DNA of 43,542 bases from a virus, in the IMG/VR virus record IMGVR_UViG_3300020439_001732, positions 1-43,542 of that record; one strand, given 5' to 3'. Each line of letters opens with the position of its first letter. Position 1 is the first letter of the stretch. This document shows, piece by piece, positions 155 through 26,916 of the stretch. A model generated the notes under the pieces. The model saw only the letters and a program-made list of their open reading frames with translations, did not search any database and had not been told where the DNA came from. Position numbers and translations under genes: made by a program.

Positions 155-535
155 CTATTTGAAATCTGCCAATGGGTCTTTTAGTAGTTTTTCTAAACGA
201 GTGATTTCACCTTTGAGTTTATCAATCTCATTTTCTAACTTAACTATATCTCCATCATAAGATTTTACTTTTGGTGTTTTTAAACCATCTACTTTTTCTC
301 GTAGATATTTAAAATCTTCATCATATTTCTCGAATTTTTCTGCTACCATTTCTACATCAGAAGCATCAGCGAATCCTTGAACTACTTCTTCCAACCCATC
401 AATACGACCAGTAAAACTATACCAACCAGCGATGACGGTAGAAAGAAAAGTAACAATAGCAATAATATTGTTAATTGATACTTTGAATCCTTTTGATTTA
501 ACTTCTTCAATAGCTTGCTCTATATCCTTTGCCAT
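155..535 (-). CDS. Single-span membrane protein with coiled coil (i-spanin-like candidate)
   Basis: 126 residues. A short basic/acidic N-terminus is followed by one transmembrane segment at about residues 21-43 (INNIIAIVTFLSTVIAGWYSF). The remaining 80 residues are strongly charged and heptad-like (coiled coil), as in KLENEIDKLKGEITRLEKLL near the end. The likely topology is N-in, C-out, with a periplasmic coiled coil. A GGAG site lies 7 nt before the ATG. It sits between the PorV-like gene and a lipoprotein gene. Size, topology and the downstream lipoprotein fit a two-gene spanin system that fuses inner and outer membranes at lysis. No family was recognised directly, so function is inferred from architecture only. 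Confidence 0.8.
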   Translation of the reverse strand: MAKDIEQAIEEVKSKGFKVSINNIIAIVTFLSTVIAGWYSFTGRIDGLEEVVQGFADASDVEMVAEKFEKYDEDFKYLREKVDGLKTPKVKSYDGDIVKLENEIDKLKGEITRLEKLLKDPLADFK

Positions 536-536
536 T

Positions 537-1439
537 TTACAACTCCATATTTATTGTTATTAACATTGTGTTTTTCAATGGATGAGTATCATTACCTTGT
601 AACACTCCAATCCCAATTTGATATTTATCATACGATACTTCCATTCCTAATGATGGATAATTCAATCTGAAATCTACATCATTATAATATCCAGCTTTAA
701 ATTTTATCCAATCATTCCCTCTATTATATTGATATGATATTCCTTGTCCGTGTGTGTAATATCCTTTGAGAAAGTTCCATTGATTATAAATATCAAAATC
801 TTTTATAGGTATGTGTAATCCAATATTTAAACTTGATGGATTGTTAGTATCAACATTACCTATTCTAGCAGCATATCCCCAATTTTGTAACATCAAATTG
901 AGATTAACTAAATTATAAAGTTTTTTAAAATGTAAACCAGTATCAACTAAATATCCAGTTCCTTTTTCTGTATACAAATTGTGGTTAACTATTTTTACGT
1001 TAAACCCAATAGTAACATTTTCTAATTTTTCTTTTTTATAATAAAGTTCAGTTCCCCATCCAAGTGAATAAACTGTAGAACGTGGTGAGAATACACTTTG
1101 TACTTGTCCCATCACATCTGCTTCTAATTGTTCTCCGTAATTAAATTGTAGTAAACTTATGTGATACTCACCATACTTGGCTTGAAAATAATTCCACCCC
1201 ATATCATCTACAATATTAGTCATCCAATTTACTTTTGTGAACGCTACGTGGATAGTACTATCTGTATTTAGAATATTGTAAGCAGGATTTCTGTAATATG
1301 TAGACATACCACCAATCATCATCTCGTTAGCCGTAGGTGATATTGTTAGTAAACTATTTACTTGTCCTAATAATTGACTACTAATAGAAAGTATGAAAAC
1401 TATTAAAAACATTATCCAAAATTTGATATTCTTTTTCAT
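537..1439 (-). CDS. PorV/PorQ-like outer-membrane beta-barrel protein
   Basis: About 300 residues from the ATG at 1439, which is preferred because it begins a clean signal peptide (MKKNIKFW, hydrophobic core, cleavage near LLGQ) and overlaps the stop of the upstream mini-gene as ATGA. The mature start has the PorV/PorQ/FadL-like pattern: an ANEMMIGGMSTYYRNPA segment, as in the family's '..G.A..a.YwNPA', then NWMTNIVDDMGWNY. The remainder is alternating hydrophobic/aromatic beta strands ending NTMLITINMEL. In type IX secretion, PorV shuttles cargo from the translocon to the attachment complex, and PorQ/PorZ do related work. The gene lies directly downstream of a T9SS-sorted cargo gene. A generic OMP of the same superfamily is the alternative. 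Confidence 0.72.
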   Translation of the reverse strand: MKKNIKFWIMFLIVFILSISSQLLGQVNSLLTISPTANEMMIGGMSTYYRNPAYNILNTDSTIHVAFTKVNWMTNIVDDMGWNYFQAKYGEYHISLLQFNYGEQLEADVMGQVQSVFSPRSTVYSLGWGTELYYKKEKLENVTIGFNVKIVNHNLYTEKGTGYLVDTGLHFKKLYNLVNLNLMLQNWGYAARIGNVDTNNPSSLNIGLHIPIKDFDIYNQWNFLKGYYTHGQGISYQYNRGNDWIKFKAGYYNDVDFRLNYPSLGMEVSYDKYQIGIGVLQGNDTHPLKNTMLITINMEL

Positions 1440-1537
1440 TTTTCTTTTCTCTCTCCTAACCATATTACAAATTTCATTAAACAATACATTCCGATTGTCG
1501 AAAGAAATATTAGTAATAAAAAGTCAAACGGATTCAT
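1436..1537 (-). CDS. 33-residue hydrophobic membrane peptide
   Basis: Starts at ATG 1537, sharing the A of the upstream stop (TAATG), and ends in an ATGA overlap with the PorV-like gene. The product begins MNPFDFLLLIFLST, continues as one hydrophobic span to about residue 27 and ends basic (GERKEK). Single-span topology with a positive C-terminus is visible. The couplings at both ends argue that it is translated with its neighbours. Its role is unknown. Given the neighbouring spanin-like genes a small holin/antiholin is possible, but nothing in the sequence proves it. Confidence 0.62.
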   Translation of the reverse strand: MNPFDFLLLIFLSTIGMYCLMKFVIWLGERKEK

Positions 1538-4170
1538 TATCCAGTCACCGTAAACTTGTTAGCTTTTATTTTGTTACCAGTTTGTAATATAAAAATATAA
1601 ACACCTGGTTCTAATTTTTTATGTTTTTGATAAACACTTTGTTCAGGTAACCAAACACTTGGTACGTTACTAAAATCAAATGTATGTATACCTGGTGCCA
1701 CCATCTCATCCAATAGTTTACCAACATACTGACCATTAGAATTTAAGATGTATAATTTTACTTCTTTTAATTCATCAACATAAAATTGAAATCTTGTAGT
1801 TTCAGAAAATGGATTAGGATAGTTATAAGTTATTTCATCTTCTTCTGGTTCTCCACCACCAAATGCCCAATACTTATTCCATACTAATACTTGACCACTC
1901 TCACGATAAACTGTTAAATCTCTTCCACTTGGATCACCAGCTGAATATTTTCCAACAAATTCAATTGGTGCTTGTGTCCATTCTGTTGCTGGGAAATCAG
2001 CTCTGAATAAAAGTTTTAACGCGACTTGTTCTTCATCAATCCAATAGTTTTGTGGTGCGTTACCTGGTGAATAATCCATACCACCAAATGATACTTTTCT
2101 CCACCCATCATCATTTTCTGTATGAACATTCACATAAGTAAACCACGGACCTGGTAACTTACCCGTGTTCATATCAATAAATTCCAACTCATCACTTTTA
2201 AATCTTATTTCAAATTCTAATCCAGCTACATTTAAACCTTTTGGATTTATTCTCAATGGTACTTCTATAATATCACCACTACGAACACGAACTGTAGAAT
2301 CTTGTGGTAATGTAAAATCAACATCGGATTCCTCAACCATTATTCTATTCAACCAAGTACCTGGTGCATTTCCATCACCCCAACGATAAAATGTAGAACC
2401 ATTAACATCAATATATCCATCTGCGTTATCACCAGGCTCTTTTACTTTTGTACCAGTAGTGTTTACATCACCTGTAAAATAATATTTTATACTATCGATT
2501 GTGTAATCAGGATTTACATCATTACCATATACAGATGAACCACCACCTATACTAATTTGTAAAGTATCTAATCCAGTCTGTACATCATTCATCAATGGAT
2601 TAATAACTTCAATCGCACCAAATTCAAGTGTGGTATCCTCTACTAAACTATCATCCCAAAAAACAGTAAACTCATATTTTTGTTTACCCCATTCTTCATA
2701 CCATTGATAATTTAACCATTGACCATTTTCTTTTAAAGTATCTATTGTAGACCAGTTTTGTAAACTATCTCCATTTAAGTGTAAATACTTTGGTAAAATT
2801 TGTGAAGTATATGCCCATATAAAATATGAATCATTTAATTGAAATAAATCATCACCATCTACATCAGCCACCAAATATTCAGCTGCAGTTAAAGTATCAA
2901 CACCAACTACTGATTTCCATTTATTACTTTGAAAATTAAAAGATGCAATTGCATCATTTAAGTTTGTTATTTGATATCTATCCATTTCATATTGAGTATG
3001 GTCTTCTATATCATCAAGAGAATCTGGTGGATAGAATGACATTCTGTACACATTATTTCTTGGTAACATAATATTATAATATCCTCTATCATCTGTATAC
3101 GTTGTATCATAATAACTTACACCTAAGAATCCTTCACTTGGTAATGCCTGGTCTGCGGTAGTACCTTGATTATCATAATAGTAAGTACCATTATCATCAC
3201 CAATAATATCATCAGTTGTTGTTTCATCTGTTAAACTTGTAACATCACCAACTGTTTCTATGTTATACCAACTATTATTATCTTGTGGATTACTTTGGTC
3301 TAACTCAAATCGTATCTTCCAATAAGGATAAGTGTTTTCTGCACCTCTATCATTACCTTGTATATATCTAAAGTATCCCTCGATATTAACCAACTCTGGA
3401 TGTAAAGTTATATCTCCACGAGCACCACCATCATAAGTTCTATCATTGACTGTAGAGTTTCCCCAATTACCATCAATATAAACTTTGTAATCTAATGCGT
3501 AATCATCCGACACATATGTGTAGTATCCTTGATTACCTTCATAAAATGTGGCAACTCTAAAAGACCTTGGTGCATAATCATCAACCTTATCTTCTATTTT
3601 AAAATTTAGTTTTACAATTTGTTTCTGTACTCCATTACCACCACCAAATTCAAATTCATTTACATTATGTGATACTGCAGTAATTCTTAACCAATCATAA
3701 TTTGAATTATCACCTTGTGATTTTTCATTATCAGCACTTTGTAAAGAATCAATATACCCAACATCTGAATAGTGAACAACTTCATATGAGTAATCAGCAC
3801 CTAATGTACTATCACCCTCTGTACCAGTTAGTAAATGTGCACCTTTAATTACTTCAGTATCTTCGTGACTCCAATCAATTAAATCATTATCAAAAACAAT
3901 ATCCAATCTAAATGTAGATATGTTAGCACCATTATCATCAAGTGTTACTTCGATTTGCATTACCGAATCTCTCCACGCATCAAAGTTATTATTTGCATAT
4001 GCCGCGTTATTTATATCATCAGCCAAATAAGTTTGTAATTGGTGCGTAACACTCTGTCTCCACCACGTACTTGGTGTTTTATAAGTACCAATTTGTTTCA
4101 ATCGAATAATCGGTTCTTGTGCCGAGACGATACTACCCAACAATAGTATCATACTTAAAAACTTTTTCAT
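1537..4170 (-). CDS. Large secreted protein with cohesin-like/dockerin-like modules and C-terminal T9SS sorting domain
   Basis: 877 residues from ATG 4170 (AGGA 8 nt upstream; the TTG just before it is rejected). It starts with a signal peptide, MKKFLSMILLLGSIVSA/Q. Residues about 55-215 and 620-770 look like cohesin-type beta sandwiches (RLDIVFDNDLIDW; VPLRINPKGLNVAGLEFEIRF). Residues about 395-460 resemble dockerin halves (NLNDAIASFNF; DVDGDDLFQLNDSYF). The last 100 residues match the T9SS type A sorting domain: YNYPNPFSETTRFQF, KLYILNSNGQYV, GIHTFDFS, LEPGVYIF and K.NKF.V at the end. In FCB bacteria this domain sends cargo across the outer membrane for surface attachment or release. Finding it in a phage late operon is very unusual. 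A virion or adhesion role cannot be excluded, but the signal peptide favours export. Confidence 0.85.
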   Translation of the reverse strand: MKKFLSMILLLGSIVSAQEPIIRLKQIGTYKTPSTWWRQSVTHQLQTYLADDINNAAYANNNFDAWRDSVMQIEVTLDDNGANISTFRLDIVFDNDLIDWSHEDTEVIKGAHLLTGTEGDSTLGADYSYEVVHYSDVGYIDSLQSADNEKSQGDNSNYDWLRITAVSHNVNEFEFGGGNGVQKQIVKLNFKIEDKVDDYAPRSFRVATFYEGNQGYYTYVSDDYALDYKVYIDGNWGNSTVNDRTYDGGARGDITLHPELVNIEGYFRYIQGNDRGAENTYPYWKIRFELDQSNPQDNNSWYNIETVGDVTSLTDETTTDDIIGDDNGTYYYDNQGTTADQALPSEGFLGVSYYDTTYTDDRGYYNIMLPRNNVYRMSFYPPDSLDDIEDHTQYEMDRYQITNLNDAIASFNFQSNKWKSVVGVDTLTAAEYLVADVDGDDLFQLNDSYFIWAYTSQILPKYLHLNGDSLQNWSTIDTLKENGQWLNYQWYEEWGKQKYEFTVFWDDSLVEDTTLEFGAIEVINPLMNDVQTGLDTLQISIGGGSSVYGNDVNPDYTIDSIKYYFTGDVNTTGTKVKEPGDNADGYIDVNGSTFYRWGDGNAPGTWLNRIMVEESDVDFTLPQDSTVRVRSGDIIEVPLRINPKGLNVAGLEFEIRFKSDELEFIDMNTGKLPGPWFTYVNVHTENDDGWRKVSFGGMDYSPGNAPQNYWIDEEQVALKLLFRADFPATEWTQAPIEFVGKYSAGDPSGRDLTVYRESGQVLVWNKYWAFGGGEPEEDEITYNYPNPFSETTRFQFYVDELKEVKLYILNSNGQYVGKLLDEMVAPGIHTFDFSNVPSVWLPEQSVYQKHKKLEPGVYIFILQTGNKIKANKFTVTG

Positions 4171-4202: not shown

Positions 4203-4229
4203 AAACTCCCTATCAGGACGATAGAGTTT
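4203..4229 (-). promoter_or_regulatory. Leader stem-loop upstream of the T9SS-cargo gene
   Basis: Imperfect inverted repeat: AAACT (4203-4207) pairs with AGTTT (4225-4229) and CTATC (4210-4214) with GATAG (4220-4224), around a 5-nt loop and with a 2-nt bulge. No U-run follows on the minus strand, so a leader structure fits better than a terminator. It lies between the AT-rich motif at 4249 and the start codon at 4170. Confidence 0.5.
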
Positions 4230-4248
4230 GGCGTTCTTTTATATCGCT

Positions 4249-4283: not shown

Positions 4284-5288
4284 TTATACGTCAAATCTAA
4301 CAACTACTGAAGTAACTACATCTTTACTCAATTTAACTGGTTTAGCCAACTTACCTACGGCCAATAATTCAGAGTTATCATTGTAGAGTCCGACTGTTGT
4401 TAGATATGGTAGAAATTGTGAATGAGTTACAAACCCCTGTGCGGTATCTGATGCATTATAGAAACTAAGAAAACTACCAGTACCATTTGTTGGTTGGTCA
4501 CCTGGTGGTAAAAACTTAAACATATCAGTAGTACCTTCTGGTATTGTTATACTACCACTTCTACCTGGCATTACATTTGGATTAAATGAAGTATTAAATT
4601 CGTTTGGTTGGATTCTAACAACATACTCGTGTTCATAAATTGTACGAGTACTTCTATATGTTAAATCGTGCGTTTCAGTTCCAGCATTATCTAATGAACC
4701 TGTATCTGTTATAACTAAAATTCCGTGTTGATATATTATATTACCAACTTGTGAACCACTTCCATTAGATAATATTCCTTGATTTCTATCAAACGAACTT
4801 GATTTATATGCGGCGAAACTAGCTGAATGAGCGAAATCATATAAGTTACCATTCCCATCATCTCGTATATCATAGGTTACACCACCAGTAGTTATATTAA
4901 ATCTTACAGATTCTTTTTTAACTTCTTCACCCATCATATTTCTTGGGATAGAAAATATTTTAGCCCTATCGTGTAATTCTCTTTTCTCTTTTTGTGTATT
5001 ATTATTTCCGAAAGTTCTGTATGGTTCATCATTTTCATAATACATATTTCTTACCCAATACCAATTTGGTATTTCATAATATGTACCAAGACCATAATGT
5101 TGTCTTGAAGATGTATACTGACCAAAACTTTGTGAGGCCGCAGAACCCGTTAAGAAATTGTGAAAAGAACCACTTGTAGCTTTAAGTGCATAATGTCCAC
5201 TCCCACTATCATTTTGTGTGAGATTGAATTTCTTGTAAGCTTTAAATGGCTTTATTGACTTATCTGATGGGTCAATGTTTTTTAACAT
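4284..5288 (-). CDS. Tail/baseplate-associated structural protein (paralogue of the next gene)
   Basis: 334 residues starting MLKNIDPSDKS. The C-terminus carries the block TVGLYNDNSELLAVGKLAKP, matching QVGLYNDSNELLAIAKLSKP in the upstream neighbour. The two also share an internal stretch (GNIIYQHGILVIT versus GNFYPDLGILVFN). This block is familiar from structural proteins of marine T4-like phages, which supports a virion role, but the exact part is not known. The protein is rich in Ser, Thr, Gly and Asn, as tail proteins often are, and has no signal peptide or membrane span. It is the last gene of the tail cluster, 10 nt after its paralogue. Confidence 0.78.
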   Translation of the reverse strand: MLKNIDPSDKSIKPFKAYKKFNLTQNDSGSGHYALKATSGSFHNFLTGSAASQSFGQYTSSRQHYGLGTYYEIPNWYWVRNMYYENDEPYRTFGNNNTQKEKRELHDRAKIFSIPRNMMGEEVKKESVRFNITTGGVTYDIRDDGNGNLYDFAHSASFAAYKSSSFDRNQGILSNGSGSQVGNIIYQHGILVITDTGSLDNAGTETHDLTYRSTRTIYEHEYVVRIQPNEFNTSFNPNVMPGRSGSITIPEGTTDMFKFLPPGDQPTNGTGSFLSFYNASDTAQGFVTHSQFLPYLTTVGLYNDNSELLAVGKLAKPVKLSKDVVTSVVVRFDV

Positions 5289-5298: not shown

Positions 5299-6318
5299 TT
5301 AGAAATCAAGTTTTACTTTTATTATAGCTTCTCTTGAATATGATTTAAGAACTGGTTTACTTAGTTTAGCAATTGCCAATAGTTCATTTGAATCGTTATA
5401 AAGTCCAACTTGTGTTATAAACACTTTAGGGTCTTTAAAGAAACTAGCTTGTGTGAACGAACCATCTGAACCAGTAAAGAACGTTGGGTTCGCACTAAAG
5501 TTATATCTTTTATTATTCACCCTACAGAAAAAGTTAGTAGAACTAATTTCTTCTTCTCTACGAACTTGGAATTTAGCACCATCTACAATCTTATTGAAAA
5601 GTTTTCGTGGATTGTTAGCAAATGCATCGGTGTTTCTACCAGTACTTAACGCAACTGTAGAATCCAATTGTGATGCGTTAAATACAAGAATACCTAAATC
5701 AGGATAGAAGTTACCAATCGCTCCACCAGTTTGTGAAGCCGCGGCTGTTTTGATTACAGCTCTACCAGTTTCAATTGAACCACTAACGATATTAAATACT
5801 CTACCACCCTCATTAACGGTCGCAACATTAGTTGCTCCACTATCATCAATAAATTTTCTTTTAGCGGCACCACTACCAAGACATAGTTCCCAATTACCAG
5901 GATCAACTTTTTCTCTCATTCTACTTCTGTTAAATGATACAAAATAAATATCATCAGAAGAACTTGGAGCACCTGTAAATGAAAACTTCTCAGTTTGTGG
6001 TGGTAACAATACACTAGCGAATTGTCTATACATAGCCGCACTTTCTCTACCACCTTTAGCCAACTTTGTAGTATTACCAGCCGAACCACTTCCTTGAAAG
6101 TGTCCATACCCAATATCAAACTGAACTTCAGCGGTTGATGGTGATGTTGCGGGGTCTTGATGGTAAATGTGTAAAAACGAACCAGTAGCCTGTTGTGTAG
6201 AACTTGTAAAGAATGATGTTAAAGAACTTGCACCGCCACTAAAAATACCACTCGATACTTTTACTTTTTGATTTTCTACTACATCATTATTATAATCAAA
6301 TCGTGTAAATACTGACAT
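5299..6318 (-). CDS. Tail/baseplate-associated structural protein (tandem paralogue)
   Basis: 339 residues from the second of two tandem ATGs (6318), which has the better spacing (6 nt) from AGGAG; 6321 is the alternative. It begins MSVFTRFDYNNDVV and ends with the QVGLYNDSNELLAIAKLSKP block, then KVKLDF. The middle is Gly/Ser/Thr rich. It is homologous to the downstream gene over the C-terminal 150 residues, while the N-terminal halves differ, suggesting duplication followed by divergence of the exposed part. The context is tail/baseplate genes on both sides. The specific structural role is unknown. Confidence 0.8.
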   Translation of the reverse strand: MSVFTRFDYNNDVVENQKVKVSSGIFSGGASSLTSFFTSSTQQATGSFLHIYHQDPATSPSTAEVQFDIGYGHFQGSGSAGNTTKLAKGGRESAAMYRQFASVLLPPQTEKFSFTGAPSSSDDIYFVSFNRSRMREKVDPGNWELCLGSGAAKRKFIDDSGATNVATVNEGGRVFNIVSGSIETGRAVIKTAAASQTGGAIGNFYPDLGILVFNASQLDSTVALSTGRNTDAFANNPRKLFNKIVDGAKFQVRREEEISSTNFFCRVNNKRYNFSANPTFFTGSDGSFTQASFFKDPKVFITQVGLYNDSNELLAIAKLSKPVLKSYSREAIIKVKLDF

Positions 6319-6328
6319 CATCTACTCC

Positions 6329-7087
6329 TTATAAAGTACTTGGGTCTGCTTTTACTGTGATAACTACATTGAAAGTAGCTCCAGTAGCGAGACCTGTTAC
6401 GGTTAGGTTAGTAGCAGTATCTGTGGTTACACTACGTGATACAACATTAACTTTAGAACCCGTCAATGTTATAGAACGTTTTCTTTCTTCTTCATTCAAG
6501 AATACAGGAGTAGTTGCACCAGTGTTCACGGCCAAATCAGCCAACGTTGAAGTGTTCATACCTGGTACGTTGAATATGGGAGCAACTCCAGCACTTCCGT
6601 TTTGCATTAGTGGGTTGAAACCAGGACCACCACCTACTACTGTAGAAGTTCCTGTGTTTACAACTGGTGTAAGATTTGCTATTGTAGCATCGTGTAATGT
6701 GAATGAATATCCTGCTTCCGCATCACTACCATTTCTCGTGTTAGGTGAAACAGTTTGTGTAACACCTGGTCCATTGAAAGAAAGGTTTGGTGATGGTATT
6801 TCCAATATTGGAAGTTTTGCAGTGTTCTTTGGTAAGGTAACAAGTTTGTACCTCATAATTTGATTCTCATCCACGAAGGCTTCTAATAAAGGCATATTCT
6901 CAATAACTGCCCCATAAAAATTTGAACCATTCGGGTGAGCCGTATCCCATAATCTGTAATCGACTTCATCATCAGCAAGTGCGAATTTTGTAATTTTGAA
7001 TTCGTCTTGTCCTCTTGCTAATAACTCTCGACCTTTTTTGGTTAATACAGCATCTACCGTTACGCTTGTATTATTTAAAAATCCCAT
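6329..7087 (-). CDS. Phage tail-associated structural protein, unnamed family
   Basis: 252 residues with AGGAG 7 nt before the ATG. The conserved-looking N-terminus (MGFLNNTSVTVDAVLTKKGR, then ELLARGQDEFKITKFALADDEVDY) is of a kind seen in structural proteins of large marine myoviruses, where proteins starting in this way lie beside baseplate genes. The C-terminal half is Thr/Val-rich beta sequence with a short Ig-like stretch (KVNVVSRSVTTDTATNLTV). It is the first gene after the leader and motif at 7109-7144, so it probably starts its own transcript. The exact virion part is not recognisable. Confidence 0.78.
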   Translation of the reverse strand: MGFLNNTSVTVDAVLTKKGRELLARGQDEFKITKFALADDEVDYRLWDTAHPNGSNFYGAVIENMPLLEAFVDENQIMRYKLVTLPKNTAKLPILEIPSPNLSFNGPGVTQTVSPNTRNGSDAEAGYSFTLHDATIANLTPVVNTGTSTVVGGGPGFNPLMQNGSAGVAPIFNVPGMNTSTLADLAVNTGATTPVFLNEEERKRSITLTGSKVNVVSRSVTTDTATNLTVTGLATGATFNVVITVKADPSTL

Positions 7088-7156: not shown

Positions 7157-10100
7157 TTAATCAATTTTTAATTGAGAATCACCTGGCTCTTGTGTTACAA
7201 GTTTAGTAGGTGATGTTATTGTAATCTCAACTGGATCTTTACCATCTATTGTATTTTTCTTTGTTGTTTTTGTTCCTATGTAAAACGTTCTGAAAAGTTT
7301 AGTACTATAAGCTTGACTTTCAAATTCAGCTCGTTCAAACGAAGAACTATATTGATACATTCCATTGTATCTAAATTTTTCTCCAAAACCATTCGCGGTT
7401 GATACTGAAAGTGAACCTGTATAGTAAGGTACTTTTATTTCATTATGTTCACTCAACCTCGAAGAACTAATAAAAGGTTGTAACGTTTCTTCAAATTCTT
7501 TTTCAATCGCACCAAACGTAATACTAGCAGTTGCGTATAAACTACCATATTCACTCGTTGGATTTATTTCATTTATTTTATTTAATGTTGGTAAACCTAA
7601 AATACCTAATGAACCACTTTCAAAATTTCTTACATTTATACCACCAGCATAATTTGGATACTCACCACTCAATTGTACTGAACCACTATCGGTAGCGTTT
7701 ATATCAACTCCGATATCAAATATATTAGCATTCTCAAAATATGGATTTTCAACTTCTGGTTTTTTACCAATAACTTCTTTAGAACGTTCAAGTATATTAG
7801 GTTCTATTAATAATCCAAAATTATAATTAGCTCTAGCAGGAATTAATTTACCAGCAGTGTTCCAAATACTTTGGTCAAAATATTCTATGATTCTCATATA
7901 ATCCCAAAAGTTATTTGCGGATTTATATTTTTTCCAATAATCTCTTTGTACTTTATCTAAACCAGTATACGTGTATCTATATTCATCTTTTGGATTTCCT
8001 ATTTGGTCATCTATATTAAAATCAGCCAAACTATACATTATATCTTCATTAACCACATCAACTGGTGAAAATTGTAGTGATAATTTATTACTATCTATTG
8101 GTGCAAAATCTTGTGATGATTGTTCCTGTCTTACTTCTGGTGATAAATTACCACGTAGTGTTGTACTTTCTAAACGTATCTTTGTAGCGTTTCTTCTATT
8201 AGGTCCAATGTTTGGTACTTTTAATTGTTCTAAATCAACTAAACTTCTAAATGAGTTACCAGTAAATCCAACTGCACTACCTGATAAAATACCATAACTA
8301 TTTTTAAATGATTTATCATCAATCGCTTCAGTATAGGTTTGTAAGTTTACGTTATCACCCAAATCTAATCTAAAAATTAAATTATCATACGCGGATGATG
8401 TAGTGTTACCATTATAAGCTTTTGGTGCTCTAACGTGGTTATCAAAAACACTCTGTGATAAAGGTTCACTCCACAATCTAAACTCTTGTAGAGAACCACT
8501 AAATTGTACACCATAAAATTTAGAACTTGGTTTACCACCAAGATAAAAATTTGTACTCGTAGAAAATTTCGTGTTAACACCAGCAGTACTTGAATTAAAA
8601 CTTGAAGAATCTTGATATTGAATTACCTGTCGTGTTGAATCATATTGTTTTGTTGTTAATTCGTATTTAATATTTTGAGTAGTAGTATCAGCAGTTAAAT
8701 CAGCTCCACTAGCTGATTTTCTTGTTAACATTACACTCCACATCTCATCATTGTATACAGGAAATAAAGATGAAGTTAAATATTGAAAACTCGAACCACT
8801 CAAAGCAAATTCAACATATCCATAATCATCAGGTTGACCATTATCTCGTAATGCGATTGCCCAATTATCTTCGGCCTCAAGTATAACTTGGTCTTTGGAT
8901 TTTGGTGAACGGAATCTAAACTCTACTGTTTGTGGTTTAATACTACTTTCAGTATCATTACGCCAAGGAAATCTAACAGTCTCACTTGATTTAAAATCTA
9001 AGGCGTATGAAAACTTTCTTTTCATTTCATACGATACTCGTGTACCAACATCAGGTCCACCAAACTCACGTATCCTTAAAATACTACTTGGTATACCATA
9101 ACAATTTACTAATCCTTTTAACGCCCTTTGAGTACCTTTGTACTTCATAAAGAAAGGCATATTAGTTAAAATTCTTTTCCATATCTCTTCAGTTAATTCT
9201 TCTTGTGGTGTTTCGTATTTATCAGAACCATCAGCACCTTTACCTAATAAGTACTCAGGTATTATTACCAAATCATTACCACTACCAAGTTCCATTCCCA
9301 TACTCTTCGCAACTTGTTGTACTAAATCTTTAGATATACCCTCACTTAGTTTATTTGTTCTTTCATTAGTATCTGTAAAATGTCTAACATAAGTCCACAC
9401 CTCATCAAATTGTTGACCAACCATATCCATAAAATCTAAGAACGCGTTATTTTGTGTATCGGTGTTTATGTGTTGTGGTAAATGTCCTACAAGTCTATCA
9501 GTATTATTTAAATCAAATATAGATGCACTATTAATCATATTATCATACCAATTAGTAAATATAGAATGACTCGTATGATAATTTATATAAGGTTTAGAAT
9601 TATTATGTTTTGGTACTGCAACATCGTGAAATTGTCCAATCGATGAACTAGCATAAGATGAACTTTCAAAATACATATAATGTTCAAATGGGTCAAACGA
9701 ATTAATAACTTGGTTTTTACCAACATCATATCTATCTTTAGTAACCGATGAACCAGTTACATCAGTAACACCCGCACTTTGTGAAGTGTAGTTTTGTATT
9801 AATTCTAATTTCTTTTTAAAATTTTCAATTCTTCTTTCTGCACTACCAAAATGAACAAAGTTACCAAAACCTGTATCATCTTTATCTATACCAAGTTGTT
9901 CGGTTCTTTTCTGATAATCAATGTTTAATTGTACATCAAGTAAACTACCACTAAATAATTTATTTTTTATATCTTGTTTTGTTTCATCATCAGTACCCAA
10001 CAAATCGTTAAATGTATTATATTGAGTACTTCTAAATTCAATTGGATTATCAACTGAATTTAAATTAGGAACTCTTAAATATAACACATCTGGATCTTCT

Positions 10101-11842
10101 TCAACAAAATCAACTAACTTAACCATATCAGTATAAGGTTCTAATTTCTCTTGAACAAAATAACAAGTATCTAATTCTTCAATATCATTTGGTAGTTTAT
10201 CATAAAGTTTAAATATTTGAGAAGTTCTATCCGCATCATTATCTTGACCACTCTTACTATTAATAACAATAAAGTATTGGTCACCAATAACCATATACGT
10301 GTTTAATCTTTGTATTTGTTGTTTTTGGTATTGTACATAAAATCTATCAAATATATCTGAACTTCTATCTTCACCAGTATTGTTAAATTGATTTGCCAAT
10401 TCTTCATATGACATATTTATTTTAACTCTACTTGCATCCAACACTTCTACGATAGTAGCGATTAAAGTTCTTGGTACTTGTGTAGTTTGTATTTGTGCTG
10501 GTGGTGTATTTTCTGGTATTGGTTCTACCTCTGGTACTGGTTGTGGATCAGGATGTGGTTCATCAAGAAAAAATTCATCATTAGTTGGTATAGTTGTTGT
10601 TGGTGGAACATCTACATCACTATCAGATGGTGAAAATAGTTCTTCATTCAGAGCCATTCTAAATTTATTTCTACTATGTAAAAACTCTTCGTTACTTTTC
10701 CACTTACCCATTGTAGCACAAATAACATTATTCGCAACGATTGTATGACCTCTATCTAAAACTAAATTGTAAACATCAGAAACTGTATTATTAAATTTAT
10801 ATGATTTTAATTCATCAGCTCTATACCATCTACCATTATGTTTTATTGGATGACCAGGTGTAACGTGTAATCCTTTATAGTTAATCATATTGGCACCACC
10901 ATATGGTTTTGGTGATTTAATAACTTTTTTTATTTTAGCAAAACCAATTTCAGTTTTAACTTTCATACCTGGTTTTAAAAATTTTATTGGTACACTTCTA
11001 TTATTACTTAATTTTATTTTAGTGTTTGGGTGAAAACAAGTTTGTGAAAATAAATCCATCAAACTTTCAGCACCTAAAACAAAGTTAGCTGGTACGTTAT
11101 CTGGTATTGGTAAATTAGGTGGTGCAATATTAGGTGGTGCACCAAGAAATGTTTCAACTGTATTTTCAAAAACATTTGGTATATTGATTTGTCCACCAAC
11201 CATATTATCGTTGAATCCCATATCAGTATTATGAAATGTTGCGATTAAAATTGTTGGGTCTGTTAAATCAAATCTTATCTTACCAGCATTTTGAGTAGTT
11301 TTTGGAAAGAATACTGTTGTTTTACCTATACCTAAAAAATCACTTTTATAAACTCCATTGTTTATATCTTGTAAATCAACTTTTACTTCTTTTCTATTTG
11401 GTGAAATCTCTTTTATATAATATTGTAATTTTTTAGGATATAATTCACTTAGTGTTTCTGATGCACCTTGATTTTGAAAATAACGAGTTTGTCCATTTAT
11501 AACTTTTACGTTAACTTTGTGTGTCCAAACTTGACCAGTAGCATCAACAAATACATCTTGTTCACTACCAGCAATTCTTCTTAAAAATAAGTATTGTACT
11601 TTATAATCACCAGAACCTAACCCCATTTCTCTAAGGTGTGTTCCGATATCAACTAAAACACCATCATCATTAAATTGTAACGCACCGATAGGAAATACAG
11701 CATCTTGGATTGGATTATCTTCAACATCAAACACGTAGATATGTACATAATCTCTAGCCGAAGATTGACCATAGTTCGTAAAATATTTTACATTACCCTC
11801 TAGCTGTTGTTTATCTTTTTCTTTTAAAGAATTAAATTTCAT
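7157..11842 (-). CDS. Giant baseplate/tail protein with embedded Hint domain and LamG-like region
   Basis: 1561 residues; the ATG overlaps the upstream stop as TAATG. Residues 1-268 precede a Hint (intein-type) domain at about 269-378, and a Pro-rich acidic linker follows (about 405-455). The central part contains NSASIFDLNNTDRLVGHLPQ and DMVGQQFDEVW. Around residues 1000-1180 a LamG/concanavalin-like region is visible (WSVMLTRKSA, FYLGGKP, FSGSLQEFRLWSEPLS). Position among gp6, gp25 and tail genes and its great length suggest the large wedge or fibre-connecting component, in the place of T4 gp7 or gp10 or the 'VrlC-like' protein of cyanophages. No direct gp7 similarity was recognised. The C-terminus ends KLVTQEPGDSQLKID. 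Confidence 0.85.
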   Translation of the reverse strand: MKFNSLKEKDKQQLEGNVKYFTNYGQSSARDYVHIYVFDVEDNPIQDAVFPIGALQFNDDGVLVDIGTHLREMGLGSGDYKVQYLFLRRIAGSEQDVFVDATGQVWTHKVNVKVINGQTRYFQNQGASETLSELYPKKLQYYIKEISPNRKEVKVDLQDINNGVYKSDFLGIGKTTVFFPKTTQNAGKIRFDLTDPTILIATFHNTDMGFNDNMVGGQINIPNVFENTVETFLGAPPNIAPPNLPIPDNVPANFVLGAESLMDLFSQTCFHPNTKIKLSNNRSVPIKFLKPGMKVKTEIGFAKIKKVIKSPKPYGGANMINYKGLHVTPGHPIKHNGRWYRADELKSYKFNNTVSDVYNLVLDRGHTIVANNVICATMGKWKSNEEFLHSRNKFRMALNEELFSPSDSDVDVPPTTTIPTNDEFFLDEPHPDPQPVPEVEPIPENTPPAQIQTTQVPRTLIATIVEVLDASRVKINMSYEELANQFNNTGEDRSSDIFDRFYVQYQKQQIQRLNTYMVIGDQYFIVINSKSGQDNDADRTSQIFKLYDKLPNDIEELDTCYFVQEKLEPYTDMVKLVDFVEEDPDVLYLRVPNLNSVDNPIEFRSTQYNTFNDLLGTDDETKQDIKNKLFSGSLLDVQLNIDYQKRTEQLGIDKDDTGFGNFVHFGSAERRIENFKKKLELIQNYTSQSAGVTDVTGSSVTKDRYDVGKNQVINSFDPFEHYMYFESSSYASSSIGQFHDVAVPKHNNSKPYINYHTSHSIFTNWYDNMINSASIFDLNNTDRLVGHLPQHINTDTQNNAFLDFMDMVGQQFDEVWTYVRHFTDTNERTNKLSEGISKDLVQQVAKSMGMELGSGNDLVIIPEYLLGKGADGSDKYETPQEELTEEIWKRILTNMPFFMKYKGTQRALKGLVNCYGIPSSILRIREFGGPDVGTRVSYEMKRKFSYALDFKSSETVRFPWRNDTESSIKPQTVEFRFRSPKSKDQVILEAEDNWAIALRDNGQPDDYGYVEFALSGSSFQYLTSSLFPVYNDEMWSVMLTRKSASGADLTADTTTQNIKYELTTKQYDSTRQVIQYQDSSSFNSSTAGVNTKFSTSTNFYLGGKPSSKFYGVQFSGSLQEFRLWSEPLSQSVFDNHVRAPKAYNGNTTSSAYDNLIFRLDLGDNVNLQTYTEAIDDKSFKNSYGILSGSAVGFTGNSFRSLVDLEQLKVPNIGPNRRNATKIRLESTTLRGNLSPEVRQEQSSQDFAPIDSNKLSLQFSPVDVVNEDIMYSLADFNIDDQIGNPKDEYRYTYTGLDKVQRDYWKKYKSANNFWDYMRIIEYFDQSIWNTAGKLIPARANYNFGLLIEPNILERSKEVIGKKPEVENPYFENANIFDIGVDINATDSGSVQLSGEYPNYAGGINVRNFESGSLGILGLPTLNKINEINPTSEYGSLYATASITFGAIEKEFEETLQPFISSSRLSEHNEIKVPYYTGSLSVSTANGFGEKFRYNGMYQYSSSFERAEFESQAYSTKLFRTFYIGTKTTKKNTIDGKDPVEITITSPTKLVTQEPGDSQLKID
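10709..11038 (-). other. Hint (intein-like) autoprocessing domain inside the 1561-residue protein
   Basis: Protein residues about 269-378. Block A is CFHPNTKIKLSNNRSVPIKF with Cys269 as nucleophile, then LKPGMKVKT. Block B is GLHVTPGHPIKHNGRW, with the T..H motif. Block F is VYNLVLDRGHTIVANNVICA. The normal intein end (His-Asn followed by Cys/Ser/Thr) is absent; the sequence runs ICATMGKW, resembling Hint domains that end '..ATLGHG' (Vint/BIL types), which cleave rather than splice. There is no homing endonuclease insert. The domain is about 110 residues, the size of a minimal Hint fold. Confidence 0.85.
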
Positions 11843-12154: not shown

Positions 12155-13336
12155 TTACCTCACCACTCTAAATTCAAAATTATCATCATATATCATTGAT
12201 GTTTCATCTGCACCACTACCACTTACTACTTTGATTAAAAATCTATAACCTCTCTCTGGCATAAATCCATCCATCCAAAGATTAAAATAATTTCCTGTAC
12301 TATCACAACTAACAATTGAACCTGTACCAAATGGTATTATTGTATCTTCAGTTTCAGCATCTTTTACTGAATAGTAAGTTCCCTGTCCAATTGACTGACT
12401 ACCACTTGGTAGATACTTTACAGTCAATGCTGCTGGTGTGGTATCAAATCCACGAGTAGGATACAATTCTCTACCAGTAATTCTAAATTTAACTTTTGAT
12501 TTTTCTTTGTACTCTGGTTTTAAATTATTAAAATAAACTTTTAATCTATCTAAGTCTGTAGAACCCAACGCACTCAAACTACCTGTATTCCAAGAACTAT
12601 CATCCCATTCCACTTCTAATTTTGGTGGATATATTGTATGAGTTTCACGTGAAAAATAAATCAAATGACCAAGTGGGTCTGAACTACCCTCTGCTGAACC
12701 TGTAGCTGTTGTTGGGTCAAAGGTACTAAATTTACTTGATGATGTTGGTGTGTTTAATCTTTTTATTATAAATCCATTTTGACCATATGTAGAACCAGAA
12801 TAGATTTGGTTTTTAACTAAACCAGTTACATCCATTCTAACATCCGTAGTTTCGTGGTCTAATACAAAAGAAGCTTCGTGAGAATACTGACCACTTAAAC
12901 TTGAAGTCCACCACGTACCACCTTGTGTATCACTACCACTTAACCATTGTGTTTGTGTTGTATCATTATCACGATACTTCCAACTTGCACCATCACTAAG
13001 TGCTGGGTCTCTATCAACTCTACCAGTTCCACCTACCCAACTTCCACTAATGTTGTACGCGAATAAAGTGTTCGTGGTTGATAATTCTCTTGAACGGGCA
13101 TCATATAAATTTAAATAATACTTGGCACTACTTGGTATAATTCCACTCTGTACCGAAGATGATATATAACCACCTATATCAAACTTAATTAAAATTCTTG
13201 ATGCATCTACAATCGTACCAGAAGAATTTACGTTTTTACGTACTTCTAATATTTCATCTAATCCTGTATTGATTGATGAAGTTACACTACCCTCGTATAT
13301 GGTAGTATCTACAGTTGGATACTCGAAATAGTACAT
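12155..13336 (-). CDS. DNRLRE-like beta-rich structural protein of the baseplate operon
   Basis: 393 residues. The N-terminal 250 resemble the DNRLRE/TGF-propeptide-like beta fold found in surface and phage tail proteins: YEGSVTSSINTGLDEILEVR, SRILIKFDIGGYISSS, YYLNLYDARSRELS, VRMDVTGLVKNQI and GFIIKR. The C-terminal part is another beta domain (KVKFRITGRELYPTRGFD; WMDGFMPERGYRFLIKV). It starts with AGGAG and overlaps the gp6 stop as TAATG. T4 has gp7/gp8 near this place, but sequence similarity to them is not apparent. A structural (baseplate or adhesin-like) role is inferred. Confidence 0.78.
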   Translation of the reverse strand: MYYFEYPTVDTTIYEGSVTSSINTGLDEILEVRKNVNSSGTIVDASRILIKFDIGGYISSSVQSGIIPSSAKYYLNLYDARSRELSTTNTLFAYNISGSWVGGTGRVDRDPALSDGASWKYRDNDTTQTQWLSGSDTQGGTWWTSSLSGQYSHEASFVLDHETTDVRMDVTGLVKNQIYSGSTYGQNGFIIKRLNTPTSSSKFSTFDPTTATGSAEGSSDPLGHLIYFSRETHTIYPPKLEVEWDDSSWNTGSLSALGSTDLDRLKVYFNNLKPEYKEKSKVKFRITGRELYPTRGFDTTPAALTVKYLPSGSQSIGQGTYYSVKDAETEDTIIPFGTGSIVSCDSTGNYFNLWMDGFMPERGYRFLIKVVSGSGADETSMIYDDNFEFRVVR

Positions 13337-15303
13337 TAAATATCTCCTACTACTTTACCTTGTATATCTATATCAGGATATTTTAATTCAAAAATACTTG
13401 GGTCGAGTGATGGGTAAACAATACCCTCTTTTGTAGCTGATTGCATATCGTAAACATTTCCACTATACCCACTCTCTACTTTAAATTTATTTTCAACTAA
13501 TACTAATTGTTTGTTAGGATTATCTTCTTCTGGTGGAACAACACTTGCTACACCATCAACTAATGATATTATATATGCGGCATCACTTAAAATCAATGGT
13601 TGATTTATTTGCCAACGTTTTATATCATAATGTTTCTTTAAACTTTCAATACACTTAGCCAACACAACATTTTTATTATATCCTCTTTGTGTTATGATGG
13701 CAAACTTAATACCAAAATTAATTATGTATGCATCTTTAATATTAATTGCATCTGTTAATATTCTGTATTGTGATAAATAAAGTTTTAAGTTTTGTTTTGA
13801 AGTATCATTCAATGTAGTTAATCTACGTGTATCATCAAAACCCAAAACATAAAAATTTAACGCCATTGGATTAGGTATTACGTTTGGTGTTTTTTTCTTC
13901 TTTTTCTTTTTATTAACAATTGTTAATTGAGATTTAGTTTCTAATTGTTCATCTTGTACAATAAAACACTTAGCAATCTTACCATACTTTTGTGGTAATG
14001 AATAAACTCTTGTAATATAATCTTCTTTAGTTACTGCTCTATTTTGTGTATTAAAATATGCCAGTGCGTTTTGTCTAACCTCTTCGTTACTCTCACCACT
14101 CGAACCACCAGTAGCGGCATCTTTATTAGTAACTTGTAAACTAGCTCTAGCATCTGCCGCCTTAGAACTATCTAATCCATCTTCACTTAAAGATAAATTT
14201 ATAGAATCTAAATTAGTAATCGAATTCGACATAACGTTATCTTCAACCGAACCACCATAGTGATAAGTTATAGTTAAAGTGATATTACTTGGTGCTAAAC
14301 CAAACGCCTTTGTTTTCATAAAATTACTTGGGTCAAATGATGTATCAAGTTTAGATAAACCTGTACCAAGTGAACTACCAACATTATCAGGATTAGGAAT
14401 AATCTCTTCATCTGCATTTGAACTAATACCAGCACCAAACCTAACTTCTGTTTTTCCATCACTACGAACATATGTAGTAAATCTACGAGCGGATTTAATT
14501 AACTTTAATAAAAATGGTGTTTCAGATTTTTCATCTGAAGAATCAGGTGTATTAGTTTCATTGTTCTCTACAGATTCAAACACTGTATCTTGTGCTAAGA
14601 AAGGAACTTCATACCAAGTGTTTCCATCATCATCAATTACTGATTCTATATGTACTACATTTTCGTTAGTTAAAAATACTTTATCAAACTTCTTTGCCGC
14701 ACCAAAGGTAAATGTTTCAGATACTTTAGTACCACTTTCTACTAAGGCATTTTTTTCTAATCTAAAATGTGTTGGTGTTGTACCATCGTATTGTGATATG
14801 GTATCTTTACGTGAATCTAACGCGGTTGATACTTTAAAGTTTACATCATCAAGAACTCTAAATTCAATACCAGTTTCGGATGCAACTTTTGAATTTGCAG
14901 TTAGTATTGGTGCGTAATTAGTATCAGGTACAAATGTAGTACCAGAAGCCAACGCGGGTACTTCTACAGAAAACTGACATACTGCAACCGCAGGTGAACT
15001 AAGTTTTGGTTTATACCCAAAAGATTGTGCAATCTTAAATATGTTTTTCTTTTCTTGAGCAGAATGTAAAAGTGTTTCTTGAAATTGTTTATCAATATAA
15101 AATGATAACACATCACCTACATATGCCGCCATTTCAATAAACAACATACCTGGTGATGATTCATTAAAATCATTGTAAGCTGCTGGAAAATATGTTTTAG
15201 AAAATTCAATTAGATTATTTCTAAGTGAACCAAAATCTCTACCTATATATGAGACTTCTTTTTTCTCTATTTTTTTATTTGTTCCATACTCTACGTTAGG
15301 CAT
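13336..15303 (-). CDS. 6: Baseplate wedge protein gp6-like (baseplate J family)
   Basis: 655 residues, close to T4 gp6 (660). The N-terminus has the typical wedge-J opening: YIGRDFGSLRNNLIEFSKTY, then FNESSPGMLFIEMAAYVGDV and LSFYIDKQFQETLLHSAQ. Later come TLTITYHYGG, NEEVRQNALAYFNTQNRAVT (the conserved 'A..yF.tQnRaVT..DY' block) and a C-terminal helical/beta part. In T4, gp6 forms the ring of wedges around the hub. It directly follows gp25 by 10 nt, the classical gene neighbour. A Lys-rich insertion of seven consecutive lysines around residue 470 is unusual. Confidence 0.93.
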   Translation of the reverse strand: MPNVEYGTNKKIEKKEVSYIGRDFGSLRNNLIEFSKTYFPAAYNDFNESSPGMLFIEMAAYVGDVLSFYIDKQFQETLLHSAQEKKNIFKIAQSFGYKPKLSSPAVAVCQFSVEVPALASGTTFVPDTNYAPILTANSKVASETGIEFRVLDDVNFKVSTALDSRKDTISQYDGTTPTHFRLEKNALVESGTKVSETFTFGAAKKFDKVFLTNENVVHIESVIDDDGNTWYEVPFLAQDTVFESVENNETNTPDSSDEKSETPFLLKLIKSARRFTTYVRSDGKTEVRFGAGISSNADEEIIPNPDNVGSSLGTGLSKLDTSFDPSNFMKTKAFGLAPSNITLTITYHYGGSVEDNVMSNSITNLDSINLSLSEDGLDSSKAADARASLQVTNKDAATGGSSGESNEEVRQNALAYFNTQNRAVTKEDYITRVYSLPQKYGKIAKCFIVQDEQLETKSQLTIVNKKKKKKKTPNVIPNPMALNFYVLGFDDTRRLTTLNDTSKQNLKLYLSQYRILTDAINIKDAYIINFGIKFAIITQRGYNKNVVLAKCIESLKKHYDIKRWQINQPLILSDAAYIISLVDGVASVVPPEEDNPNKQLVLVENKFKVESGYSGNVYDMQSATKEGIVYPSLDPSIFELKYPDIDIQGKVVGDI

Positions 15304-15313: not shown

Positions 15314-15748
15314 CTATACACCACTAAATGTAAAAGTTAATTGGTCAATCGAATCTGGATCATCTAACGTAACACTAAACTCAAGTGTTATAAATACAGA
15401 ATTGTTTTCACGTGTAACAAAAACATTCTGTATTATTATATAATCCAACCACTCCTCAACCGCTTCACGAATTGAAGCTTCTATTTTATCACCTATATCA
15501 GCATCCGATTGTTCAAAAATAATTTCGTGTAATCTTGAACCAAACGTTGGTTGTGCCAAACGTTCACCTTTTCTAGTCAATAAAAGATTTTTTAAATTAC
15601 TAAAAGCCTGTTCACGTAATGTGGCAGCTCTTGGAAAAAATCCACGATTAGTATGACCTAACGGAAAAGTTAAACCAAAAAAAGAATCTGGATCTTCATT
15701 GATTACTCTTACTGCTGGATGGTCTTCTTCTATGGATTTTATTGCCAT
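15314..15748 (-). CDS. 25: Baseplate wedge subunit gp25-like
   Basis: 144 residues (T4 gp25 is 132). The hallmark of the gp25/GPW family is clear: FGLTFPLGHTNRGFFPRA, then NLKNLLLTRKGERLAQPTFG and SRLHEIIFEQ. gp25 (TssE relative) bridges wedge proteins to the sheath initiation ring. The ATG overlaps the preceding stop as TAATG and gp6 follows directly, as in T4-like phages. All expected regions are present. Confidence 0.95.
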   Translation of the reverse strand: MAIKSIEEDHPAVRVINEDPDSFFGLTFPLGHTNRGFFPRAATLREQAFSNLKNLLLTRKGERLAQPTFGSRLHEIIFEQSDADIGDKIEASIREAVEEWLDYIIIQNVFVTRENNSVFITLEFSVTLDDPDSIDQLTFTFSGV

Positions 15749-20514: not shown

Positions 20515-20544
20515 AATATACGACATTTTCTATATACTTGTCAA
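20515..20544 (-). promoter_or_regulatory. Sigma70-like promoter for the HD/gp55 operon
   Basis: Minus strand: TTGACA (20544-20539), an 18-nt spacer ending in CG, then TATATT (20520-20515), 33 nt before the ATG at 20482. The same layout with AAGACTTGAC upstream recurs at 35605 and 36458. It overlaps the last codons of the PLP-enzyme gene. Confidence 0.82.
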
Positions 20545-21381
20545 GTCTTTTTTTGCAATTTTTTCCATATTTTCTCCACCAAGATTATAGAATAAAGTTT
20601 TACCCTCTAACTTATTATTCTGTAACCACCACCAAGCTTTCTTATCCCAATTACCATTACACGGAAATGGTGTTTCTAAATAATCCATAGTATCGAAAAA
20701 ATCTTGTTCTGCTTCTGATATGTAAACATTATTATGGTGATACACATCCCACTTCTTTAACATTCTAATAATAGATGTTTCACCAGCGGTGGTAATCAAG
20801 TAAGCTTTCTTTTGTGGTATGAAGTTATCGTAATCCATAAAACCTTTTAATACACCAGCACCTGTTACACCACTTCCAGCGTTCAATACAATATTATCAA
20901 AATCATATTCTTTTTGTATATCACTTACTCTATCAGAAAAATAATTTATATATTCAGGATGATTAAATGCATATGGCATCATTTGATAATCTTTTTCTTC
21001 TGCAACTCGTTTCACATAAGTTTCCACGATATCAAGTAGGTTAGGTTTTACTGGTACTAACTCTACATCATAACTTGAAATCTTATCTAATATTTCTTGT
21101 GGATAATTTTTACTATTTGGATATGCGATTTTTATATCCCATCCTAATTCTCTACCAATGTAAGCAAGTGCCCATCCACTATAACTTACTCTAACGGATA
21201 AATGTATTAATGGTTTGTTCTTATCTAAATCACCACTTTCTAATACTCTACGTATACCTTCCATTTTAGCCCACGGTGGTAAATCCATATCACCATTAAA
21301 TAAATCATCTCGTTTTACCCAAACCTCTTGTTCACCACAAGTGTGTTTTTCTATGGGTGTATCAAAATTAAAGTAGAGCAT
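20530..21381 (-). CDS. PLP-dependent enzyme, fold type II (ACC deaminase/D-cysteine desulfhydrase-like)
   Basis: 283 residues. VKRDDLFNGDMDLPPWAKME contains the lysine (about Lys39) expected to bind PLP. LSVRVSYSGWALAYIGRELG matches the 'S.G.sNHg.A.A' helix region with substitutions, and NAGSGVTGAGVLKG (169-180) is the phosphate-binding glycine loop. The family includes ACC deaminase and D-cysteine desulfhydrase, which act on small amino acids. The usual 'GGNK' is changed to 'PWAKMEG', so specificity may differ. It overlaps the Asp/Asn-hydroxylase-like gene by 14 nt and is the last gene of the cassette; its stop lies within the next promoter. Confidence 0.78.
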   Translation of the reverse strand: MLYFNFDTPIEKHTCGEQEVWVKRDDLFNGDMDLPPWAKMEGIRRVLESGDLDKNKPLIHLSVRVSYSGWALAYIGRELGWDIKIAYPNSKNYPQEILDKISSYDVELVPVKPNLLDIVETYVKRVAEEKDYQMMPYAFNHPEYINYFSDRVSDIQKEYDFDNIVLNAGSGVTGAGVLKGFMDYDNFIPQKKAYLITTAGETSIIRMLKKWDVYHHNNVYISEAEQDFFDTMDYLETPFPCNGNWDKKAWWWLQNNKLEGKTLFYNLGGENMEKIAKKDLTSI

Positions 21382-22546
21382 CTAAATGCCTTTGTTCACA
21401 TTCGATATCCATAATAACGTGGAATCGAAAATTCTTAGATTCATTTCTAACCCAATGTGGTTTTCTTTTATCCATATAATAATACTCACCAACTTTTAAT
21501 CTATGGTCAATCTCTTCACCATCTAAACCAATTTGTGTAAATACACAATCATCATCAACTTGTAATGGAAAGTGTACTCGTAATGATTGACCAACTTTAG
21601 GTCCGTTCTTAGTTTTGTAATCCCAACTATCATAACCAATATCAGTATGCCTTTGTATCAAACCTTTATGTGGTTCAACTCTTGTGATTACCAACCACGT
21701 ACATTGACCAACCGTAGTTATCTTATCCACGATACTTTGTAACTTAGGTAACGATTCTAATATCTTAGTATCTGTAGGACTATCTGGTCTGATTGGTACA
21801 ATCTCAATCGTGTACCAAGTTTTTTCAGGACCACCATAGTTTCCATTTATACCATCGTATGACCACGGATTTAGTGCATCTTCATAGTTTATGATTTCTT
21901 GTACTAATTCAGAACATTCTTTTTTTGTTATTGGTGAATCAATATCAATTTTCTTAATTGTAATATCTTCGTGTTGTTGTACACCTGGTTGTTCTTTTTC
22001 TCCACAATAATATAATCCACGTACCTCAGAACCAACTGCGGTTATTTTACTTGATAACCACTTAGCCCCAATCATATCCATAAACTTCTTATCTTCTTTT
22101 AATTCCATATTGATTTCAGTAAACCATATATCTCGTTTTGTTGAAAAGAAACCATTATCTTCTTCACGTTCTTTTTGTATAGATTCTAACAACTCATTTT
22201 CATAACCATCTTTGTATGCGAATCTTGTAACTTGTAAATCACCTTTACTTAATGTACCAACTATATCATCAGCAATATCTTTTATACCACGATTACTTTT
22301 ACTTTCTTTTATAAAGTATGCCCATACTAATTCATCATCTACTTTTTTAAATTTATAACAACCTTTATCATTTTCATCATAAATGTTTTTCCAATTTACT
22401 TTTTTAAACGGGTCAAGATTTTTTTCTTTTGTAGCTATAGGTTGTTCTTGATGTTGTGGTGGTACATCATACTCTTGGAAAAATTTAGCTTCCAACTTAT
22501 AACTCTCTTTTATATTATCTGGTATTTCACTTGTTTTTAAAACCAT
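21368..22546 (-). CDS. Aspartyl/asparaginyl beta-hydroxylase-like 2-oxoglutarate/Fe(II) oxygenase with extra N-terminal domain
   Basis: 392 residues. The C-terminal 150 hold the metal triad: RHTDIGYD (His300, Asp302), [18 protein letters not shown], and [19 protein letters not shown] with His364 and Arg374 as the 2-oxoglutarate ligand. This pattern matches Asp/Asn hydroxylases. The N-terminal 190 residues are a separate domain with [20 protein letters not shown], faintly acetyltransferase-like, which I cannot assign. A GGAG precedes the ATG, which overlaps the upstream stop. The substrate is unknown; a peptide, an amino acid or a modified base are possible. Confidence 0.82.
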
Positions 22547-23752: not shown

Positions 23753-23753
23753 A

Positions 23754-24917: not shown

Positions 24918-24969
24918 ATTGTTACTCCTATTGTTATGTTGAAAGGTTTTATTTAACAACTCACCTAAA

Positions 24970-25107: not shown

Positions 25108-25188
25108 CAAAGAACATAACTTTTTAGGATTTAAAATATGTTATATATATGTATATATCATCGAGGTTTCCCAAACTGTATTTTATTT

Positions 25189-26901: not shown

Positions 26902-26916
26902 ATATAACTCACTTCA

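Follow-up and report, generated by a model that had tools for sequence, protein, structure and literature searches.

Phages that carry genes for T9SS-tagged proteins have been described before. Cryophage was reported to have three such genes, and its authors suggested that the phage hijacks the host system (PMC7468147). crAss-like BACON phages likewise encode T9SS-domain proteins (PMC6949934). In the light of these reports, the statement in an earlier note on the DNA analysed here, that no phage system of this kind was known, was too strong. The phage studied here resembles both groups in having genes with T9SS sorting domains. As far as the available text of the two papers goes, however, their cargo consists of variable enzyme-like or BACON proteins and no shuttle or PorV-type gene is mentioned (PMC7468147, PMC6949934), whereas the present family has one conserved cargo-barrel pair.

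Dedicated partners for secreted proteins are known from the bacteria themselves. In F. johnsoniae, a type B cargo gene commonly has the gene for its own SprF-like shuttle directly behind it, and PorV serves every type A CTD (PMC12618676). The phage pair has the same layout as a type B cargo and its adjacent PorP/SprF-like shuttle, namely a cargo gene followed by a dedicated outer-membrane barrel gene (PMC12618676), but its sorting domain is of type A, its barrel is PorV-like rather than PorP/SprF-like, and both genes are viral. Additionally, PorU and PorZ retain CTDs that stay attached to PorV and PorQ (PMC10202324). The phage pair, as we propose it, would resemble these host pairs, in which a CTD protein is held by a PorV/PorQ-type barrel. 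The phage cargo differs from PorU and PorZ because it has cohesin and dockerin-like parts, and no protease or PorZ-like domain was detected in it.

Two further phage systems bear comparison. Pelagimyophage and Melnitz carry a curli (CsgG/CsgF) operon (PMC7029224, PMC9004378). Like the family described here, these are marine T4-like phages with part of an outer-membrane secretion system, but no homology to CsgG was seen in the gene cluster described below (at most 9.9 bits for PF03783 and an hhalign probability of about 1%). In the cultured Flavobacterium phage vB_FspM_immuto (NC_055915), the products of gp13 to gp19 carry no annotation beyond hypothetical, lectin or cohesin protein, and the published paper on Baltic Flavobacterium phages does not mention immuto. 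As in the present family, a cohesin-T9SS protein (gp15) lies beside homologues of cluster proteins (gp17, gp18 and gp19). The immuto genes differ in that there is no PorV-like gene and in that they encode several smaller proteins, one of which has a C-type lectin domain. Searches of open-licence PMC papers yielded no description of a PorV-type protein encoded by a phage, nor of such a shuttle beside its cargo. Phage T9SS-tagged proteins are already known, and what appears to be new is their conserved pairing with a PorV-type shuttle.

The cargo gene and its domains

The window, by which we mean the whole stretch of 43,542 nucleotides that was analysed, encodes an 877-residue protein near one of its ends. 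The earlier note gave the coordinates of this ORF exactly (1537-4170) and left the strand unstated; it is the minus strand. The protein, referred to here as the cargo, has the following features.

1537-4170, minus strand: T9SS type A cargo, predicted to be secreted, 877 aa (ATG at 4170, stop at 1537)
4120-4170, minus strand: putative Sec-type signal sequence, MKKFLSMILLLGSIVSA followed by Q, residues 1-17 (by inspection)
3541-3993, minus strand: N-terminal beta-sandwich, weakly cohesin-like, residues about 60-210 (core local pLDDT about 80)
2830-2865, minus strand: dockerin-like calcium-loop motif DVDGDDLFQLND, residues 436-447 (in 32/32 homologues)
1861-2325, minus strand: cohesin domain, residues about 616-770
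1537-1830, minus strand: T9SS type A sorting domain, residues about 781-877, with a YPNPF motif and the invariant K872 (1555-1557)

The C-terminal T9SS type A domain claimed for this protein is borne out by a genuine match to TIGR04183 (Por_Secre_tail). The C-terminus scored 24.8 bits in a protein search, above the curated cut-off of 23, and a six-frame search of the window gave 28.9 bits, with only 2 of the 14 control genomes also matching. The same model matches all 32 aligned cargo homologues. In the AlphaFold model of the whole cargo, which is of low confidence (pLDDT only 53.5), the region 791-875 of the sorting domain has six strands. A type A CTD is expected to have an Ig-like, seven-stranded fold. 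K872, near the C-terminus, is invariant across the 32 aligned sequences, and in translocon structures the near-invariant C-terminal lysine of type A CTDs touches PorV (PMC10994853).

The signal peptide, which had also been proposed, is upheld as a hydrophobic N-terminus common to the homologues, as judged by inspection. In the cargo this region ends VSA/QEP. In the aligned homologues it runs up to a Q, mostly as AQ, GQ, PQ or SQ and in a few as TQ, which we read as a putative cleavage site with a small residue ahead of the Q.

The earlier note had further described two cohesin-like domains, and here only the C-terminal one (about 616-770) holds as a well-supported cohesin. It matches PF00963 with an E of 2.5e-4 and 21.7 bits, slightly under the Pfam gathering score of 24.1; homologous domains in other phages score 36.7 bits (immuto gp15) and 48.0 bits (contig L106). 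An hhalign comparison of this domain with immuto gp15 gave an E of 3e-11, and Foldseek of the low-confidence cargo model returned mainly cellulosomal (clostridial) cohesins, with TMt up to 0.80. We rejected a second cohesin, as the N-terminal beta-sandwich aligns with the C-terminal cohesin with an hhalign E of 0.005, which is suggestive at most, and it is cohesin-like at best. As for the proposed dockerin-like halves, the calcium loop (DVDGDD...LND) is kept in 32/32 homologues; a Pfam search of the cargo gave no dockerin match.

An inverted repeat, AACTC-TATC ... GATA-GGGAGTT, is located at 4205-4240 (minus strand), some 40-50 bases ahead of the ATG of the cargo gene. It is a candidate terminator or regulatory hairpin.

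The cargo gene belongs to a phage family

On the minus strand, the cargo gene is flanked by the following genes.

13336-15303, minus strand: baseplate wedge gene, farther upstream
15314-15748, minus strand: baseplate wedge gene, farther upstream
6329-7087, minus strand: conserved upstream gene, probable tail or fibre protein
5299-6321, minus strand: conserved upstream gene, probable tail or fibre protein
4284-5288, minus strand: conserved upstream gene, probable tail or fibre protein (function of all three from position; syntenic in relatives)
537-1439, minus strand: gene for the 300-aa PorV-like outer-membrane beta-barrel protein, whose signal sequence ends in GQ; 97 bp separate it from the cargo gene
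155-535, minus strand: gene for a 126-aa protein judged by inspection to have a single TM segment and a coiled coil; in relatives it also comes after the PorV-like gene, and it is the last gene that is complete at this end of the contig

The cargo gene recurs in related phage contigs. A scan of viral contigs recovered 49 loci that encode relatives of the cargo with 50-72% identity; the annotated phage collection contained no cargo homologue. Gene order in the relatives is constant, with tail-related genes, the cargo gene, the PorV-like gene and the gene for the 126-aa TM and coiled-coil protein following one another. A gene for the large subunit of terminase (E about 1e-52) is present on two of these contigs. 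The earlier note had allowed that the contig might be a chimera of phage and host sequence. Because the same gene order is found in 49 contigs at this level of identity, we exclude a chimera. The core of the earlier reading, a late-region phage gene for a T9SS-exported surface protein, is thus supported by the domain match and by the non-chimeric contig.

The cargo gene is under purifying selection, which is strongest in the sorting domain. The dN/dS value is lowest, at 0.13, in the sorting domain; it is 0.18-0.19 in the remainder of the cargo, 0.18 for the cargo as a whole and 0.20 for the PorV-like barrel. The T4-type late promoter TATAAATA was not enriched within the window, so late expression of the cargo is suggested by gene position only.

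Several other features of the window were observed. A 1561-aa tail-region protein (7157-11842, minus strand) has a Hint domain (Vint, PF14623, E 1e-19) near residues 269-380, which is possibly an intein-like or autoprocessing element. ARAGORN identified a phage tmRNA at 29148-29553 (minus strand), whose tag is GDSQPSYAYAA, as well as a tRNA-Cys at 34898-34972. The regions 20530-29112 and 32223-43479 contain many genes of metabolic type, for asparagine-synthase/QueC-like, aminotransferase, threonine-dehydratase-like, radical SAM, peptide deformylase, PhoH, HSP20-like and nuclease proteins.

A PorV-like barrel gene follows the cargo gene

The earlier note overlooked the PorV-like gene next to the cargo gene, and this neighbour is the more novel part of the locus. 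NCBIfam PorV/PorQ models match the 300-aa window barrel. Among 28 barrel homologues the PorQ model matches 28 and PorV_fam 27, with a best E of 3.5e-36. The window barrel scores 44 bits against PorV_fam (NF033709), under the cut-off of 90, though two divergent relatives, L030 (125 bits) and L035 (95 bits), pass it. The phage members fall short of the PorV equivalog NF033710 (cut-off 250 bits; best phage member L030, 80.9 bits, E 9.9e-23), and the window barrel, with 42 bits, falls short of the PorQ equivalog NF033711 (cut-off 220 bits). Because the window barrel is under the family cut-off and NF033710 is not reached, we use the name PorV-like and not PorV.

Structural comparisons point in the same direction. 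When the barrel-family profile was compared with the whole PDB, a single molecule was matched, the PorV of the T9SS translocon (6h3i, E 6.8e-15). In a Foldseek search with the AlphaFold model of the window barrel (pLDDT 79), the top two PDB matches were the PorV chains 8gl6_F and 6h3i_F, ahead of FadL. The phage barrel can be aligned with host PorV over its full length, with an identity of about 20-32%, and retains the NPA motif. It lacks an insert of 45-60 residues that is found in host PorV, so SprA binding could differ. In a midpoint-rooted tree the phage barrels form their own clade (100/100) beside PorV (93/87) and away from PorQ. A PorQ identity was rejected, since the tree and the C-terminal motif favour PorV. 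By sequence and by model, the window barrel appears to be a FadL-type outer-membrane barrel that is closest to PorV.

The two genes are tightly linked. The PorV-like gene lies directly downstream of the cargo gene in 45/49 loci, and the remaining four contigs are cut at that side. Six extra contigs were found through the PorV-like gene, and all six have the cargo gene upstream. The gap between the genes ranges from -4 to 240 bp across the loci. Since PorV is what normally picks up type A cargo, it seems that the phage brings a shuttle or anchor of its own.

A single-sequence viral scan with the window barrel found nothing, whereas a profile scan with the barrel family retrieved 43 loci, so the miss was a matter of method. 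In the annotated phage collection there was no convincing PorV-like homologue, the best being a weak partial match (E 0.4).

Downstream cluster, related modules and host

In relatives, the cargo-barrel pair heads a cluster of envelope genes. Beyond the 126-aa gene, the cluster has genes for four more proteins, whose localization was judged by inspection: a lipoprotein (about 213 aa), a probable outer-membrane barrel (328 aa), a secreted protein (172 aa) and a protein anchored in the inner membrane (250 aa). Pfam and PHROG searches with these proteins gave no significant identity. A CsgG/curli identity of the lipoprotein and the 172-aa protein was considered and rejected (PF03783 at most 9.9 bits, hhalign probability about 1%).

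The downstream lipoprotein has a homologue in immuto, gp17. Beside it, gp15 encodes a short protein that consists of a cohesin and a T9SS sorting domain (44.8 bits), and an hhalign comparison between the cargo family and gp15 spans both domains (E 3e-9). gp18 (in its N-terminal part only) and gp19 are homologues of two further cluster proteins, and gp13, near gp15-gp17, is the gene with the C-type lectin domain. Two divergent contigs, L105 and L106, have a T9SS cargo of roughly 646 aa in the same setting, and that of L106 includes a cohesin. Replication genes precede the module in immuto and L105. No PorV-like gene was detectable in immuto, L105 or L106, which suggests that host PorV can suffice for these modules. 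On the same grounds, we take the cohesin-T9SS module to be the older or the more mobile element, and the PorV-like partner to be confined to the phage family to which the window belongs.

Two observations concern these related modules. A gene for a secreted-looking EndoG-like DNA/RNA nuclease lies within, or immediately ahead of, the cohesin-T9SS module of immuto, L105 and L106 (L052 9935-10513; L105 8836-9420; L106 4987-5556), and such an enzyme would fit the breakdown of incoming DNA. In a third lineage (L109, L112 and L114; around 9.1-9.7 kb), a separate lipoprotein of about 125 aa scores 16-17 bits against TIGR04183, below the cut-off, and adjoins a larger secreted protein, which in L112 has a cohesin match. 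This looks like an arrangement in which a lipid anchors the sorting-type domain instead.

A scan of 84,980 bacterial and archaeal genomes gave a sole match, a 9-kb contig binned in a Flavobacteriales MAG and syntenic with the phage loci. The same MAG has a genuine PorV of its own, and an ORF with a CTD-like end precedes that porV. As the cassette is found in a Flavobacteriales MAG and immuto infects Flavobacterium, a T9SS-bearing Flavobacteriales host is likely.

Discussion

We propose that the type A cargo of the phage and its own PorV-type barrel act as a pair and belong to a phage-built surface structure, and we give this reading a probability of roughly two in three. Secretion and surface display of the cargo are strongly indicated. 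We also infer that the cargo binds the barrel and that the phage benefits from this.

Our model begins with the passage of the cargo across the inner membrane, which would occur by Sec. The C-terminal domain would be recognized by the host T9SS, and the cargo would pass through the host SprA translocon. The phage barrel may collect the cargo in place of, or beside, host PorV, and may keep it on the outer face, as PorV does with PorU and PorQ with PorZ. The cohesin and dockerin-like parts, together with the lipoprotein, the probable second barrel and the inner-membrane protein, could form a surface structure on the infected cell. The most likely use of such a structure is altering surface receptors or excluding competing phages; adhesion would be another conceivable benefit.

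This proposal can be carried further. The locus might encode a complete display apparatus, with a private cargo, a private shuttle that replaces host PorV at SprA, and anchors in the form of the lipoprotein and the outer- and inner-membrane proteins, so that the cell becomes coated with a phage cohesin-dockerin structure. We regard this extended form as tentative and lean somewhat against it.

Alternatively, the barrel and abundant cargo may fill the SprA translocons and displace host PorV, leaving host adhesins, which are possible receptors, undisplayed; the cargo would then be mainly a plug. It is known that PorV-type barrels bind both SprA and the CTD (PMC10994853), and the lack of the insert could make an otherwise PorV-like phage barrel non-productive. 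However, a simple plug needs neither the strong constraint on the cargo outside its sorting domain (dN/dS 0.18-0.19) nor the cohesin that is common to the T9SS cargo of other phages. We consider a takeover of this kind unlikely.

An envelope or egress function seems slightly less probable again. Here the cargo, the barrel, the downstream lipoprotein, the probable barrel and the inner-membrane protein would weaken or bridge the outer membrane at lysis. This would suit the late-region position and the trans-envelope gene set downstream; endolysin-like and spanin-like ORFs (by inspection) come after the related lipoprotein and barrel genes of L109 and L114, and a lysis role has been proposed for phage CsgG pores (PMC9004378). 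Yet the module comes after replication genes in immuto and L105, and the members scanned matched no lysis family.

It is very improbable that the cargo is a virion component, such as a fibre or decoration protein, whose sorting domain has another purpose. The cargo gene does directly follow tail-region and baseplate genes in the same direction, but the protein carries a Sec-type signal and a T9SS domain, its partner has a signal sequence and a barrel fold, and the related modules in immuto and L105 lie away from tail genes. Finally, an assembly chimera or accidental host gene, which the position of the cargo gene near the end of a 43.5-kb contig might suggest, is already refuted by the synteny of 49 contigs at 50-72% identity, and the terminase genes on two of these, the purifying selection and the separation of the phage branch from all cellular relatives searched argue against it as well.

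To return to the cargo and barrel as an acting pair, their conserved pairing indicates that a component of a secretion system has been recruited by a virus for its own cargo. In Flavobacterium, type A cargo proteins all share PorV, whereas dedicated shuttles are documented for type B; the phage pair would provide a natural type A sorting domain with a dedicated shuttle. As the reduced module of immuto is found in a cultured phage, part of the system is testable now. The pairing of cargo and barrel would reveal how the surface of Bacteroidota, a dominant group in both sea and gut, is remodelled by phages.
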